This document shows positions 55,875 through 64,000 of a DNA stretch of 64,000 nucleotides, in pieces (position 1 is the stretch's first letter; every line of letters begins with the position of its first letter). The DNA is from Cryomorpha ignava (GTDB lineage: Bacteria; Bacteroidota; Bacteroidia; Flavobacteriales_D; Cryomorphaceae). The stretch covers positions 1-64,000 of the forward strand of contig NZ_JAAGVY010000013.1 in the NCBI RefSeq assembly GCF_010686655.1, read 5' to 3'. The notes under the pieces were generated by a model. The model ran no database searches, was not told the DNA's origin, and worked only from the letters and a program-made list of their open reading frames with translations. The position numbers and the translations under genes were made by a program.

Positions 55875-57536
55875 CTAATCATCATCATCCTTCTCAAGCA
55901 TTTCCGGCGGACAAGAAGTACACAGTAGTCCATTTCTGGTCATTAGCCATGTTTGGTTTATCATATCACCATCCCATGTATCAGTAACATTGGGTACATC
56001 ATCCAGAATAAATTTCGATTTTTGATTAAAATGAATGGATTTACCCACAGGTATTTGCAAAATGTATTTTATCTCCTGTCCCCTAATTTTCGCAGTCTTT
56101 AATACCGCGTGATAGGGATGTACGAGCAGGCTGTCGCCAATTATTTCTACATAACTTTCAATGCCCATGGCGTTTGCCACAGCATCGGTTTGTGATGACC
56201 CATGTGCTTCGCGCTCAATCATTAATCTAAATAAAGTGTCAGCATTATTCATTTCTACCGTAAAATCGTTTCTACCGATATACAGTACATCAGTCGATTT
56301 AATATCCGGAAATGTTACATTGGAATCGTAAGAAAATCTATTTCGATAAAATCCTTTTTTAAATTTGTACATGGTACTGTATTCCGGAAGCAGGTCTAAA
56401 TACAGGGTATCAGATACAGGCAATTCCAGCGGTACGTTTTCCGTAAATGAGGTTTCTACCTGAAACTTGTCGTATATTTCGGTAGCGCTCACTGCTACCA
56501 TAGTTATGCCGGCAAACCAAAGTATTACCAATACAATTCCCGTCCAGATCGGAATTTTTTTAAAATCGAAAAGCAATCGGATTCCGAGCAGCAGCATACC
56601 GATAGCGGGGGTAATGGTGGTGAGGAAAACACCAGCTGAAAACAAGGTTCTTTGATTTACCGTGTCAAAAAAAGAGTTTACAATTACAGGTACATTGGCA
56701 TTATTAAACATACCGTTTTGGCTTATTGCCAATATGCTCTCCCAGCCGAATAAGAGACCCAGGCTTAAGAAAATCCCGGTTATTCCAATTACTATAAAAG
56801 CAGCTCCTATTACTTTGGCCAGAATTACCAGCAATACTCTAAGTATGTTGCCTATATTTCCCAAAATTCCACTTGTAGCGTCAGCAGCCCTTCGTCCAGC
56901 GGTGTTTACAGTATCTTTATTGATATTGTTCTTTTTTCCGAAATCTTTAATGTCTTCGCTTACATCCCTAAAAGATTCATTCACCTTTCGGGAAATGTTT
57001 TCGACTGTTACAGGCTCTCCGCGCATTTGAAGTTTTTCGGCGGTAGTTCTAGCTTTTGGAATAATAATGGCAAGAACTACGTAAATAAGAATTCCCGAGC
57101 CGTAAAAAATGGTGAAAATCACAAAGATGGCGCGCAAAATTATCGGATCTATCCCAAAATAGGCACTTATTCCGCTACATACACCCGCCACTACTTTATT
57201 GTCCGGGTCTCTAAAAACTTGTTTTTGCGCCCGGGTTCTATATGTGTATCCGGTTTCCTCCGCTTCTTCTTCTGCATCTACGTAGTCTTCGGGTTGACCC
57301 ATTATGGCAATTATTTCATCTACGTCACTTACAGTTATTACCTGCTTTTGATTTGAAATACGCTCGATAAAAAGCTCCGCAATGCGAAGTTCTATATCCG
57401 AAATAATTTCATCGGCACTTTCTTGATTTTTGAAATATCCGCGTATGGTATTCAGATATTTATTCAGCTTGTCAAAGGCGATTTCTTCAATGTTGAATAC
57501 GCGCCCTCCTATATTTACACTTATTGTTTTATTCAT
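55875..57536 (-). CDS. PspC-domain membrane protein
   Basis: A 553-residue protein: an N-terminal cytoplasmic helical domain (about 1-95, with a DADEE-like acidic end), a PspC domain (about 105-165: RDPDNKVVAGVCSGISAYFGIDP), several further helices (about 230-345) and a C-terminal, probably extracytoplasmic beta domain. PspC proteins relate to membrane-stress responses. The gene starts 2 bp after the padR stop; PadR with PspC is a frequent pairing in Bacteroidota. Confidence 0.9.
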   Translation of the reverse strand: MNKTISVNIGGRVFNIEEIAFDKLNKYLNTIRGYFKNQESADEIISDIELRIAELFIERISNQKQVITVSDVDEIIAIMGQPEDYVDAEEEAEETGYTYRTRAQKQVFRDPDNKVVAGVCSGISAYFGIDPIILRAIFVIFTIFYGSGILIYVVLAIIIPKARTTAEKLQMRGEPVTVENISRKVNESFRDVSEDIKDFGKKNNINKDTVNTAGRRAADATSGILGNIGNILRVLLVILAKVIGAAFIVIGITGIFLSLGLLFGWESILAISQNGMFNNANVPVIVNSFFDTVNQRTLFSAGVFLTTITPAIGMLLLGIRLLFDFKKIPIWTGIVLVILWFAGITMVAVSATEIYDKFQVETSFTENVPLELPVSDTLYLDLLPEYSTMYKFKKGFYRNRFSYDSNVTFPDIKSTDVLYIGRNDFTVEMNNADTLFRLMIEREAHGSSQTDAVANAMGIESYVEIIGDSLLVHPYHAVLKTAKIRGQEIKYILQIPVGKSIHFNQKSKFILDDVPNVTDTWDGDMINQTWLMTRNGLLCTSCPPEMLEKDDDD

Positions 57537-57538
57537 GG

Positions 57539-57865
57539 CTAGTCCTTTAGTGTGCGGTTTACGGCTATTAATAATTCGTCCCAGGTTTCTCGTAATTCGT
57601 TTAGTACCTGTTCTCCGGTTTGTGTTAAACTATAGTATTTTCTCGGTGGGCCGGCTTTAGATTCTTCCCAGCGGTAGTCAAGTATTCCGGCGTTTTTGAG
57701 CCGTGTTAGTAGAGGGTATAATGTGCCCTCCACCACAATTAATTTCGATTCTTTAAGCGCTGCGATGATATCTGAAGGATACATTTCTTCTTTTCTGATT
57801 AATTGAAGAATGCAAAACTCCAGAATACCTTTCCGCATTTGCGCTTTTGTGTTTTCAATTTTCAT
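57539..57865 (-). CDS. PadR-family transcriptional regulator
   Basis: A 108-residue winged-helix regulator: ILEFCILQLIRKEEMYPSDIIAALKES, LYPLLTRLKNAGILDYRWEES, GPPRKYYSLTQTGEQ. PadR proteins repress their own operon or nearby genes until an effector binds. It is the middle gene of the SdiA-regulated-like, padR, pspC order. Confidence 0.94.
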   Translation of the reverse strand: MKIENTKAQMRKGILEFCILQLIRKEEMYPSDIIAALKESKLIVVEGTLYPLLTRLKNAGILDYRWEESKAGPPRKYYSLTQTGEQVLNELRETWDELLIAVNRTLKD

Positions 57866-59816: not shown

Positions 59817-60359
59817 ATGAATAGACCATTTATTATTACCTTCATCAGCGGGGCAGTACTTATTTTGATTTTTGCCTTATACAAAACCGTTATGGCCGAC
59901 GATAATTCTCTACGCTCTGATTTCCTGACACCACCCCCGCCTTCAGTCTTTGCCCAGCCTATTAGCGATACTGTAGCTTATAAACTTTTTAGCGATTATC
60001 ATCAGTCTAATAATGAAAAAGACAGCAAAGGCGTGTTAAGAACTGGTGATAAAGCAATAGTTCAATTTTATGTAGATCAGGAACAGTTAATTGAGCCTCT
60101 AAAAGCAAAAGCCCTGGCTCTTGGAAAGGAATTCTTGGGATTGAGTGCTATTCCCGCCTATAATCTTGCGGACAGTTCGCATACGCTTATTTGGGTAGCA
60201 GTGGTAGATGCTGATTCAACCGCCGGCGTAAAGCGCGAATTAATGCTTCCAAAATCGGGCGAGCGGTGGAGTGATTATATTTACGATTATACGCTGGCAT
60301 GTCCCGAAATGTGCGTTGAAAATTCCAATTGGCTCTGGAATACAAATTGGGTAGAATAA
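59817..60359 (+). CDS. CPxMCV-family membrane-anchored protein, paralogue A
   Basis: A 180-residue protein of a family I do not recognise. It has an N-terminal hydrophobic anchor (about 5-25), a proline-rich linker (PPPPSVFAQP), the family YHQ motif (Y61-H62-Q63), a central alpha/beta part (FYVDQEQLIEPLKAKALALG, FLGLSAIPAYN, TLIWVAVVDAD) and the C-terminal ACPEMCVEN with C162 and C166. The body probably faces the periplasm. Two more paralogues lie at 62.8-64 kb. The membrane protein gene at 60378 follows 18 bp later and should be co-transcribed. Confidence 0.8.
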   Translation: MNRPFIITFISGAVLILIFALYKTVMADDNSLRSDFLTPPPPSVFAQPISDTVAYKLFSDYHQSNNEKDSKGVLRTGDKAIVQFYVDQEQLIEPLKAKALALGKEFLGLSAIPAYNLADSSHTLIWVAVVDADSTAGVKRELMLPKSGERWSDYIYDYTLACPEMCVENSNWLWNTNWVE

Positions 60360-60377
60360 GATTCTATAATTGGTATA

Positions 60378-61055
60378 ATGAAGTTTTTCCTTATCTTAAA
60401 TTACATTCTTCTTTCTATTGCTGTATTGGGAGGATTATTCGGGTTAAGTCAGCATAAATATATCCGAAAGTCATTTATCTGGCTGGCTGTATTTCTCCTT
60501 TTCTCAGGGCTTGCGCAATTTTTGGCAATCTATCTGGGCACTAAGTACGGAAACAATAAGATTTATTTAAGTCTTTTGACACCATTCTATTACATACTTA
60601 TATATCTCATATTTTCTAATTTTTCCAAAAATAGGCTGACCATAAAAGCCAATAATCTTGTCTTTATTATTGGGTCACTGCCTATATTAATTTATACGGT
60701 TATTTCAATTAATAAGGTTGAAGTAGCCATTGAGGCAATATCAATAGCAAATGTGGTTTATTCTATTGCTGCCATGATCTACTTTTTAGATATTCTAAAT
60801 ACACCCTTAAAGTTTAGCCCATTCAAGCTTCCTAAATTTTATGCACTTACGGCCTTTCTTTTTTATCATTCTGCCATATTTTTCTTTTGGACTTCGCAAA
60901 AGTTTTTTCAGACAGAAATGAATAAGGTTTCACTTAATATGGTAAATGTCTTTATGGTTTTGATATACTACTGCGTTTTGTTCGGAGCTTTGATTGTTGA
61001 GCGTAAATACAATCCTGAACAAACGGATTCTCATAAAATTATTAAGACCAAATAG
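60378..61055 (+). CDS. Seven-helix membrane protein
   Basis: A 225-residue integral membrane protein with seven predicted helices (about 4-22, 31-53, 61-82, 90-108, 116-138, 153-172 and 184-206), few charged loops and a short polar C-terminus. No known enzyme motif. Similar seven-helix proteins are found next to histidine kinases in Bacteroidota and are proposed sensors or signal transmitters; here the kinase gene follows 115 bp downstream. That link is inference from position. Confidence 0.75.
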   Translation: MKFFLILNYILLSIAVLGGLFGLSQHKYIRKSFIWLAVFLLFSGLAQFLAIYLGTKYGNNKIYLSLLTPFYYILIYLIFSNFSKNRLTIKANNLVFIIGSLPILIYTVISINKVEVAIEAISIANVVYSIAAMIYFLDILNTPLKFSPFKLPKFYALTAFLFYHSAIFFFWTSQKFFQTEMNKVSLNMVNVFMVLIYYCVLFGALIVERKYNPEQTDSHKIIKTK

Positions 61056-61170
61056 GTCTCGTAAGCACATATTTATAAACAGAATTGCCAAAATTATTTT
61101 TACATGCTATCTTACATCCGTTTTATGCTATCCTTATAATTAATGTATTGCCGCTAAGGCTGACTGAAAA

Positions 61171-61956
61171 ATGAATATCAACGAAGGCGACGTACTCTTT
61201 TTTACGCTCATGGGAACGATTTTATTTGTTCTGATGGTTGGCTTTTTCTTTGCTTTTGTTTTGATGTACCGACGGCGCCAGCTCGAATTTGAGAATGAGC
61301 GACTGGTTATGGAGCAAGAATTTTCGGAAGAGCTTTTGCGCACGCAGCTAGAGCTAAGTGAGCAGGTAATGCGCAATATATCAGAAGAAATTCACGACAA
61401 TATTGGCCAAACCCTTACTGTGGCTAAGCTCAATCTCAATGCCATGAGCGACACTGACTACAAAGAACACGCGAAGAATGCAAAAGATTTAATTACCAGA
61501 TCGCTGCAAGACTTGAGAAATTTAAGCAAGACACTAAACGGCGATTATATTCTTCGCGAGGGTTTGCAGAATGCTATAGCCCGCGAAGTAGATGTTATAA
61601 ACGCTTCGGGAGAATTGAATTGTTCTTTTGATGGCGAGATTCCTGCCAATTGGCTTACGCCGAATTCTGAAATCATTCTATTCAGATGTGTACAGGAAGC
61701 TTTGAGCAACGCCCTAAAACATGCTCAGGCGGGTCGTATAAAAGTTGTTGCCGTTATGATGCAAGATCTTTTAACCTTAGAAATTCAAGATGACGGTGTG
61801 GGGTTTGAAGAAACCGAAGAAACCACAAAAGGAGTTGGGATGGGCAGTATGACAAAGCGAATAGGAATGTTGGGTGGCGAGTTTGCGATAGAAAGTGGAA
61901 AAGGTAGCGGAACGAAAGTTCTCATCAAGCTTCCGAGATTTAAAGCAAACGTCTGA
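61171..61956 (+). CDS. NarL-class sensor histidine kinase
   Basis: A 261-residue kinase. One transmembrane helix (about 11-33), a coiled coil, the HisKA_3 block EEIHDNIGQTLTVAKLNL with phospho-acceptor H75, and a HATPase domain (QEALSNALKHA, QDDGVGFEE, GMGSMTKRIGMLGG). It has no separate sensor domain, so it may depend on a partner such as the seven-helix protein. The convergent LuxR-type regulator gene next to it lacks a receiver domain, so phosphotransfer between them is not certain. Confidence 0.92.
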   Translation: MNINEGDVLFFTLMGTILFVLMVGFFFAFVLMYRRRQLEFENERLVMEQEFSEELLRTQLELSEQVMRNISEEIHDNIGQTLTVAKLNLNAMSDTDYKEHAKNAKDLITRSLQDLRNLSKTLNGDYILREGLQNAIAREVDVINASGELNCSFDGEIPANWLTPNSEIILFRCVQEALSNALKHAQAGRIKVVAVMMQDLLTLEIQDDGVGFEETEETTKGVGMGSMTKRIGMLGGEFAIESGKGSGTKVLIKLPRFKANV

Positions 61957-61959
61957 ATA

Positions 61960-62502
61960 CTAAGATACAAATCCACGCACCCAGTATAAAAACCGACTGC
62001 TTTCTTCGCGTGATACGAATTCTACTTTTTGCCTGATATTTCTTCTATGATTTTTTACCGTATTGGGCGAAATACAAAGTTGGCTTGCAATTTCTTCTGA
62101 AGTCTTCATTAAAGCAAGCTGCTTTAAAACTTCTTTCTCTCGCTGACTTAAGCGCATATATGACGCTATAAAATTTCTGTTGCATAGCACATTACGCGAC
62201 TCGTAGATTGAATCAGTAGGTTCTATCTCCAGTTTTGAGATACCTATATAGAAACTATATTTTTTCTGTGAGGCCGCGCGATTTGAAGTGAGCTCAATGA
62301 CATCGAGATCTTCGTATCTTTCCATTTCTGCACGCGGTTCTGTATTTATAAAGTATTCTGGCTTGTTTGTACCCTTGCAAAAAATGTGTTTGATGCCCGA
62401 AGTAGAGGTGTGAAAATGTTTGTAACCGAAATCGGTATTGGCATAAGAAACCGGAAAGACTTCTGAGATAATTTGGATGGATTCTTTTATTTCGTTATTC
62501 AT
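61960..62502 (-). CDS. LuxR-type transcriptional regulator without receiver domain
   Basis: A 180-residue protein starting at the ATG at 62502. The N-terminal part (about 1-115) is a divergent alpha/beta domain, possibly PAS-like (FGYKHFHTSTSGIKHIF, KYSFYIGISKLEI), with no phospho-acceptor Asp pocket. The C-terminal part is a GerE/LuxR helix-turn-helix: LSQREKEVLKQLALMKTSEEIASQL, SPNTVKNHRRNI. It is convergent with the kinase gene and lies 260 bp from paralogue B, close to the palindromic motif at 62602. Confidence 0.88.
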   Translation of the reverse strand: MNNEIKESIQIISEVFPVSYANTDFGYKHFHTSTSGIKHIFCKGTNKPEYFINTEPRAEMERYEDLDVIELTSNRAASQKKYSFYIGISKLEIEPTDSIYESRNVLCNRNFIASYMRLSQREKEVLKQLALMKTSEEIASQLCISPNTVKNHRRNIRQKVEFVSREESSRFLYWVRGFVS

Positions 62503-62601
62503 GACGCGGTGGTTTTTGATTATGTTGGTAAAGGTATAGGGTCGTAATAGTTCTTGACACCTGAAAATCACTGAATATTATATCGTGTAATGGCCTAAAC
62601 A

Positions 62602-62618
62602 GGGGGGTGAAATCACCC
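62602..62618. promoter_or_regulatory. Shared palindromic motif, copy B
   Basis: GGGGGGTGAAATCACCC. GGGTGA and TCACCC form a perfect inverted repeat. It ends 143 bp before the ATG at 62762, almost the same distance as copy A, and lies between the divergent LuxR-type gene and paralogue B. Confidence 0.7.
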
Positions 62619-62697
62619 AAATTTTAATCTCATATAATTTTTAATCACTGATAGTCAGATATTTAAATTGATTTAGAGAAATGCAGGATTTTGAAAG

Positions 62698-62730
62698 TTG
62701 TAATTCTTAATCATATTTCTGATATATTTG
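62698..62730 (+). promoter_or_regulatory. Promoter of the paralogue B/C operon
   Basis: TTG (62698-62700), 22 bp, TATATTTG (62723-62730), 31 bp before the ATG. The spacing is at the long end of the known range. The palindromic motif lies about 110 bp further upstream, a position typical of activator sites. Confidence 0.65.
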
Positions 62731-62761
62731 GGTATTGATTTCATAACCAAAACCTTATACT

Positions 62762-63391
62762 ATGAAAAAGTCTTTGCTTTTATTTATTGGCCTTCTTGTT
62801 GGTGGTGGTGCAACTTATTTTTATTTTCAGAATAGACTTTCCAATTCAGAAAGCTTATTGGTTAAATGTGAAAATGAAAATAGAATACTTAGAGCTGTTT
62901 CGGAGGAGTTACAAGACGATTTCAAAATTAGTTTAAAGAATTTGGCTCCTCCAGATTCTTTTGTAATCACTCCTCAACCCCTGCCTGCTGCAATTGCTCA
63001 TAAGTATCACCAAAATTACATAAACGGAACTCCGGTTTTAAAAACGAGGGTGCATGATGCTAATGGGAATATTGGAGATCAGAATATTCGGATGTTCACA
63101 ATTGAAGCAAAGTCAATCAGAAATATTCAAGATGCAGCAGGACAAGACTTTGCCGGAATCGCTTTAATTCCCGGATTGATAACCGAAGATATTAAAGGTG
63201 TTCAGAAGGGGCATACACTTATTATGGTTGGTTATAAATTGGATGACAAAGGTGGTAAGTATCTCATCCTACCCAATGATGATCAGGATACTACTTTTAT
63301 AGAAGACCATCTCGACGTATGTCCTGACATATGTGTTACAAATGAAAAAAGATTAACCAGCGCTAACAAACCCTGGTCCAATATAAAATAA
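62762..63391 (+). CDS. CPxMCV-family membrane-anchored protein, paralogue B
   Basis: A 209-residue protein, the longest member. N-terminal anchor (LLLFIGLLVGGGATYFYF), a coiled-coil segment (about 28-58) missing from the other two, the KYHQ motif (Y82-H83-Q84), the central region (DFAGIALIPG, HTLIMVGYKLDD) and the C-terminal DHLDVCPDICV with C187 and C191. The ending is close to paralogue C even at the DNA level, so these two arose by a fairly recent tandem duplication. Paralogue C begins 37 bp after its stop. Confidence 0.8.
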   Translation: MKKSLLLFIGLLVGGGATYFYFQNRLSNSESLLVKCENENRILRAVSEELQDDFKISLKNLAPPDSFVITPQPLPAAIAHKYHQNYINGTPVLKTRVHDANGNIGDQNIRMFTIEAKSIRNIQDAAGQDFAGIALIPGLITEDIKGVQKGHTLIMVGYKLDDKGGKYLILPNDDQDTTFIEDHLDVCPDICVTNEKRLTSANKPWSNIK

Positions 63392-63428
63392 AAAAGTATA
63401 CCTAAATTTCCTAACCAACCAAAAAACC

Positions 63429-63950
63429 ATGAAAACTTCATTATTTCATAAGTCCGCTTTTTTTGTAATCGGCCTTTTTGTAGGTATTGTATTAACCAAA
63501 TTGGTATTTTGCAACCCTGTTTTCTTTTCAGGTGGTACAACAAATGCAACGGATAGACATGTTGAGCAAATCGAGCTGGAAGAGGCAGTTCGTATGATTA
63601 AGACATACCACCAAATGGCGTTTTTTAAAAAGCTAAAAGTTAGAACGCGCGATAATGGTACTCAAAACATTCAAACCTTTCTCATTCAAGATACCATTTT
63701 TGATAACCTTAAAGAATTAGCCGAATCTCGGCGAGAGGAGTTCAAAGGAATTGCATTAAATCTCGGCGTAAACGACAATGGAAGTACTTTGGTTGTGAGT
63801 GCGCTCGTGCAAGGAAGTACTGACACAAAATACAAGCATCTTATTCCGGACTCCGAAGTCCCGCCGGCTCAACGAAATTTGTTCTTTTATGACCATCTTG
63901 ACGTATGCCCAAGCATGTGTGTTGAAAACCAAACGGAAATTTTTCACTAA
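63429..63950 (+). CDS. CPxMCV-family membrane-anchored protein, paralogue C
   Basis: A 173-residue protein. N-terminal anchor (about 9-27), the TYHQ motif (Y60-H61-Q62), central region (FKGIALNLGVND, STLVVSALVQGS) and C-terminal DHLDVCPSMCVEN with C160 and C164. It has an extra cysteine at residue 28 at the membrane boundary. Start supported by the CCTAACCAACC leader similar to that before other small genes here. Confidence 0.8.
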   Translation: MKTSLFHKSAFFVIGLFVGIVLTKLVFCNPVFFSGGTTNATDRHVEQIELEEAVRMIKTYHQMAFFKKLKVRTRDNGTQNIQTFLIQDTIFDNLKELAESRREEFKGIALNLGVNDNGSTLVVSALVQGSTDTKYKHLIPDSEVPPAQRNLFFYDHLDVCPSMCVENQTEIFH

Positions 63951-63965
63951 TTAATTGAATATGAA

Positions 63966-64000
63966 ATGAACGAAATATTAATGGTGCGCATCTTTATTTA
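63966..64000 (+). CDS. Possible start of a gene running off the window
   Basis: An ATG at 63966, 15 bp after the paralogue C stop, opens a frame (MNEILMVRIFI) that continues to the edge. Too short to judge. Confidence 0.2.
   Translation, partial: MNEILMVRIFI

Follow-up and report, generated by a model that had tools for sequence, protein, structure and literature searches.

Two-component systems that work with accessory membrane proteins are already known. LiaF-LiaS-LiaR is a three-component system with a sensor-less kinase; LiaS has two membrane helices and is held off by LiaF, which releases it under envelope stress. In the UhpB/UhpC-UhpA system, UhpC has a transporter fold and UhpB contains a membrane domain of its own, and in Agr and Com layouts a signal gene lies next to genes for a multi-helix receptor and a kinase. 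Here we describe a conserved gene order, consisting of a small protein, a seven-helix protein of ~220 aa (TM protein), a sensor-less HisKA_3 kinase and, usually, a LuxR-type regulator. Neither Pfam nor NCBIfam contains the small or the seven-helix family, and hence in annotation the parts would look like an orphan kinase beside hypothetical proteins. We found no description of this gene set in an open-licence library of published papers, and the accessible part of a paper on a Riemerella two-component system does not describe it.

The window (the whole stretch of DNA that was analysed, 64,000 nucleotides) carries three small genes in the order P1-TM1-kinase, a divergent LuxR-solo gene, and P2-P3-TM2-regulator (Table 1). 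P1 is separated from TM1 by 18 bases and P3 from TM2 by 15 bases. Both TM1 and TM2 match the profile of the TM family, of which both are seeds, and they are sisters in a tree with moderate support (86/85, against a customary threshold of 95/80); as sisters, they make the locus look like a duplicated cassette of small and TM genes. A receiver-less LuxR-type HTH gene divergent from a small gene was also seen in a relative, G001 (L023:7719-8372, - strand), with 24% identity to that of the window (E 1e-13); this protein is a possible target or cross-talk partner. Promoter and terminator scans gave no signals above chance. Outside the present finding, by eye, a PadR-like regulator (57539-57865, - strand) lies beside a PspC-domain-like membrane protein (55875-57536, - strand).

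Table 1. Features of the locus (positions in the window unless marked as contig positions).
Feature	Position	Strand	Description
P1, anchored small protein 1	59817..60359	+	180 aa; YHQ 61-63; CPEMCV 162-167
TM1, seven-helix membrane protein	60378..61055	+	225 aa; seven helices in AlphaFold2 model; no Pfam match
HK, short histidine kinase	61171..61956	+	261 aa; one N-terminal membrane helix; HisKA_3 + HATPase_c
LuxR-type HTH protein without receiver domain	61960..62571	-	divergent from P2
P2, anchored small protein 2	62762..63391	+	209 aa; YHQ 82-84; CPDICV 187-192
P3, anchored small protein 3	63429..63950	+	173 aa; YHQ 60-62; CPSMCV 160-165
TM2, second seven-helix protein	63966..64000, on to contig 64661 past the window edge	+	
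Response regulator	contig 64738-65385, beyond the window		receiver + LuxR-HTH (GerE); after TM2

A preliminary description of this DNA had presented P1, P2 and P3 as an unrecognised family of three anchored proteins, and much of it held. The three open reading frames are present where it had placed them, each with an ATG start, and the YHQ, FxG(I/L)(A/S) and CPx(M/I)CV motifs keep their order with nearly fixed spacing: the FxG motif starts at residue 106, 130 and 105 in P1, P2 and P3, respectively, which is 45, 48 and 45 residues from YHQ and 56, 57 and 55 residues from the first Cys. Pairwise BLASTP (P2-P3, E = 4e-11; P1-P3, E = 2e-11) indicates that the likeness is due to homology rather than chance. 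The N-terminal anchor was also borne out: each protein begins with positively charged residues followed by a hydrophobic helix, modelled by AlphaFold2 as helix 6-26 in P1, and by the positive-inside rule the folded domain is predicted to lie outside the cytoplasm. No match above the curated cut-off was found in Pfam or NCBIfam for the three proteins, nor any match for the members of the wider family that were searched. Sequence searches of the PDB returned nothing. The AlphaFold2 model of P1 has a mean pLDDT of 75 (about 90 in the core), and comparison with the PDB gave no credible fold match; Atg10 was considered and rejected (TM-score 0.27-0.35, rmsd 12.7). The whole genome contains exactly three members of the small-protein family, with no fourth copy detected. 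The three are indeed homologous, but they are only divergent members of a much larger, Bacteroidota-wide family, and the preliminary description had overlooked the conserved neighbours (seven-helix protein, kinase and regulator) that hold the real information.

Relatives were not found when a profile of the three sequences was searched against viral contigs and in a first scan of genome contigs; a kinase profile did find them. Since the family is so divergent, the narrow profile gave few matches in 395 class genomes, several of them doubtful, and a plasmid search with one member of the wide family gave none. Within the order, successive profile searches recovered two genomes from a different family (L008, L009) with the arrangement small-TM-kinase, and one from the same family (L005/L023) with small-TM-kinase-regulator; in the latter genome, the small protein has neither an anchor nor the two Cys. 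The closest relatives of P1 are at L008, L009 and L005. In L008 and L009, CPIECP stands in place of CPx(M/I)CV; G655, a genome further removed, carries a tandem pair of small proteins that end in CPPKCP, followed by TM, kinase and regulator, and L025 has two ending in CPxNCP, followed by TM and kinase. A search with a kinase alignment led to 80 named Bacteroidota loci, in 75 of which a TM protein precedes the kinase, with a small protein before it in most. Many small proteins of this wide family carry I(S/T)xxEAxxL...Y, (D)GIRIYFG, TLVxVPT or TLVxVG, and CPPxC. Small proteins of 280-304 aa in five loci (L033, L037, L068, L065, L101) look like two fused copies of the domain, matching the tandem small genes of other loci.

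We compared P1-P3 with a profile of the wide family built without the window proteins. P2 scored 19.1 bits, against a maximum of 5.8 for shuffled sequences (1000 shuffled, 790 reported), and P3 (6.9 bits) and P1 (5.6 bits) were marginal. Alignment of the two families with hhalign gave a score of 56.3 and a probability of 95.6%; column shuffles reached at most 13.8 and block shuffles at most 36.5 (60 of each), and the reversed alignment scored 13.9. The motifs align in register (YHQ with the conserved Tyr, FxGIA with DGIRIYFG, TLIxV with TLVxV, and CPxxC with CPPxC). These comparisons place the window proteins in the wide family, clearly so at the profile-profile level, with P1 and P3 probably linked to it through P2, the profile-profile match and synteny. 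The common synteny is independent support for this assignment.

The gene order was tested by searching with the small-protein sequence alone, disregarding context. Among 198 genomes of the class, this search found 28 small-protein loci, 27 of them readable, and the next gene encodes a TM protein in 26 of the 27. Among 395 genomes of the phylum, a TM gene is next in all 19 of the further places found. Pooling both searches, the seven-helix gene is next in 45/46 loci, and it is followed by a HisKA_3-type kinase (judged by H-box sequence) in all but one of the 45 (18/19 in the second search); the exception, L157, ends with a second TM gene. The module is present in at least 69 of the 395 sampled phylum genomes. 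L135 is alone among the small-family members found by sequence in having no adjoining TM gene. Other lineages carry tandem small-TM-small-TM-kinase arrays (L140, L159). TM-kinase pairs also occur with no recognisable small protein (L080, L041), and three loci (L074, L077, L081) have two TM genes where the small protein would be; hence, the small protein is not strictly required. Consecutive seven-helix genes were seen in these three loci as well as in L084 and L157, in most before the kinase, and sometimes the small gene is unrecognisable.

In five Flavobacteriaceae loci (L076, L085, L087, L098, L106), the module adjoins, upstream of the small gene, three genes resembling 5-oxoprolinase subunits (LamB/YcsF, KipI and KipA types) and an Nramp-like transporter gene; these calls were made by eye, with detail from L076 and L098 only. 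Four of the loci (L076, L087, L098, L106) were checked for a regulator directly downstream, and none has one. These neighbours are a first hint at the function of the module.

In Pfam, the window kinase matches HisKA_3 (37.6 bits) and HATPase_c (47.4 bits) and the regulator matches Response_reg (93.2 bits) and GerE (47.5 bits), all above cut-off, so the locus has both the HisKA-HATPase kinase and the receiver-HTH regulator of a two-component system. Pfam recognised no sensor domain in the window kinase beyond HisKA_3 and HATPase_c. Its best NCBIfam match is UhpB. Of the 72 named kinase loci with enough downstream sequence for this count, 65 have a regulator behind the kinase and on its strand, typically within about 60 bases (tblastn). 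In distant lineages outside the class of the window (L140, L145, L156), the kinase behind the cassette has what look like PAS-type insertions, as read from its sequence.

The modelled helix arrangement of the seven-helix protein is opsin/GPCR-like. AlphaFold2 models TM1, which has no Pfam match, as a confident seven-helix bundle (mean pLDDT 93.5), and structure searches with Foldseek and VIA placed microbial opsins and GPCRs first. Against 7b03_A, VIA gave a Z of 13.4 with 3.9 A over 199 residues, and Foldseek an E of 0.037 with a TM-score of about 0.5; arrangement alone is enough for helical bundles to attain such values, and this may be all that the likeness reflects. The TM1 sequence does not match those of solved rhodopsins. 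Across 54 members of the TM family, the central part of helix 7 has no conserved, retinal-binding Lys, and because this lysine is absent we ruled out that TM1 and TM2 are rhodopsins proper. Positions conserved in the family are a Glu in helix 2, a Tyr in helix 3, Phe-Trp and a Gly in helix 6, and an Asn and a Tyr in helix 7. Loop charges predict that the N-terminus is outside and the C-terminus inside.

We propose that P1, P2 and P3 are input (accessory) subunits of a four-part membrane signalling relay, a reading that we regard as probable. The small protein would respond to a signal and contact the seven-helix bundle, setting its state on or off; the bundle would in turn displace the lone membrane helix of the adjacent kinase dimer, and the kinase would phosphorylate the LuxR-type regulator, thereby changing transcription. 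With the cassette duplicated as in the window, P2, P3 and TM2 would share one kinase and one regulator with P1 and TM1. As no sensor is recognised in the kinase itself, the small and seven-helix proteins alone are left as conserved candidates for the input. Beyond the homology, gene order, domain content and seven-helix prediction set out above, we infer the contacts within the relay, the nature of the signal and the direction of control. Counting against the relay, besides the loci that manage without a small protein and the marginal individual scores of P1 and P3, is the predicted location of the small protein. Using a rough hydropathy and lipobox rule, we found no export signal in 65 of 87 members and a membrane or signal segment in 19, while 3 resemble lipoproteins. 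The small input domain is thus predicted to be cytosolic in most species, and anchored or a lipoprotein on the outside in others; with about three-quarters of members unexported, it would usually sit at the inner membrane face but here at the outer one, and a single mechanism that serves both is not obvious. More tentatively, one family of input domains may act from either membrane face on a seven-helix protein that is opsin-like but free of retinal and that in turn drives a kinase without a sensor.

In the main rival to the relay, the small protein would act as a tonic inhibitor of LiaF type or as an assembly factor, binding no ligand, keeping the seven-helix protein and the kinase off and releasing them under envelope stress. 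This proposal draws on the identical neighbourhood evidence, and LiaS is among the nearest named kinases by profile comparison; however, Pfam detects a LiaF-type domain in no gene of the window cluster, and the strongly patterned core of the small proteins (GIRIYFG, TLVxV) suggests, indirectly, a folded binding domain. We consider such an inhibitor unlikely.

Less likely still is the function that the preliminary description had proposed, in which CPxxC, with the His of YHQ as a further ligand, binds a metal or haem in the periplasm or forms a redox-active disulfide there. CPxxC is kept in the window and its nearest relatives, L008 and L009, and in about 60% of the wide family. However, its Cys positions are Cys in only 49/80 and 45/77 aligned members, and the protein of L005 has the same gene order with neither Cys. 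The His position of YHQ is His in 5/81 aligned members. Homologues that fail to conserve the Cys pair and the His are an outcome that the preliminary description itself had named as refuting its idea. Only the Pro of CPxxC is nearly invariant, kept in 80/80; the Tyr position of YHQ is Y, F or W in 77 of the 81, and the Gly of FxG is kept in 65/79. Most members with CPxxC are predicted to be cytosolic (38, versus 11 exported), and the CxxCH motif of haem c is absent, the sequences being CPx(M/I)CV in the window and CPIECP in L008 and L009. The poor conservation of His and Cys, together with the unexported majority, speaks against metal or haem binding or disulfide chemistry in the periplasm as a function common to the family. 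A local metal or redox role may still apply in the lineage of the window. Judged from the alignment, the redox reading is misleading, and the role of CPxxC would instead be structural, centred on the proline.

It is also quite improbable that the small protein is secreted and acts as a pheromone, with the seven-helix protein as its receptor. The arrangement of genes does resemble the Agr and Com layouts, but most members have no export signal and those in this genome are anchored, the proteins are folded-looking and 100-300 aa long, and no processing or export gene was seen as a conserved neighbour. That the small proteins have an unrelated activity and are only co-transcribed with the relay is hardly credible: the members found have no demonstrated function, but an adjacency of 45/46 across several classes and many families is far beyond hitch-hiking.

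If, as we favour, the small and seven-helix proteins act together as the sensor of the relay, a candidate input would be at hand for many sensor-less kinases of Bacteroidota, and with small proteins switching between cytosolic and exported forms, it can be tested directly on which side of the membrane sensing takes place. The four-part system would then be a bacterial counterpart, in layout, of a seven-helix receptor with exchangeable ligand subunits. Among known systems, LiaF-LiaS-LiaR shares with it a HisKA_3 kinase that has little outside the membrane, a NarL/LuxR-type regulator and an extra membrane partner in the operon; here, in contrast, there are two extra partners, the seven-helix and the detached small protein, and LiaF is a different protein. 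UhpB/UhpC-UhpA likewise has a HisKA_3 kinase fed by a separate polytopic membrane protein, but differs in the transporter fold of UhpC, in the membrane domain of UhpB and in having no small subunit. SRII-HtrII, a sensory rhodopsin with a separate transducer, offers the parallel of an opsin-like helix arrangement in a seven-helix protein whose signalling partner is a distinct polypeptide with few membrane helices, whereas the system described here dispenses with the retinal lysine of helix 7, has a kinase as its output and adds a small extra subunit.
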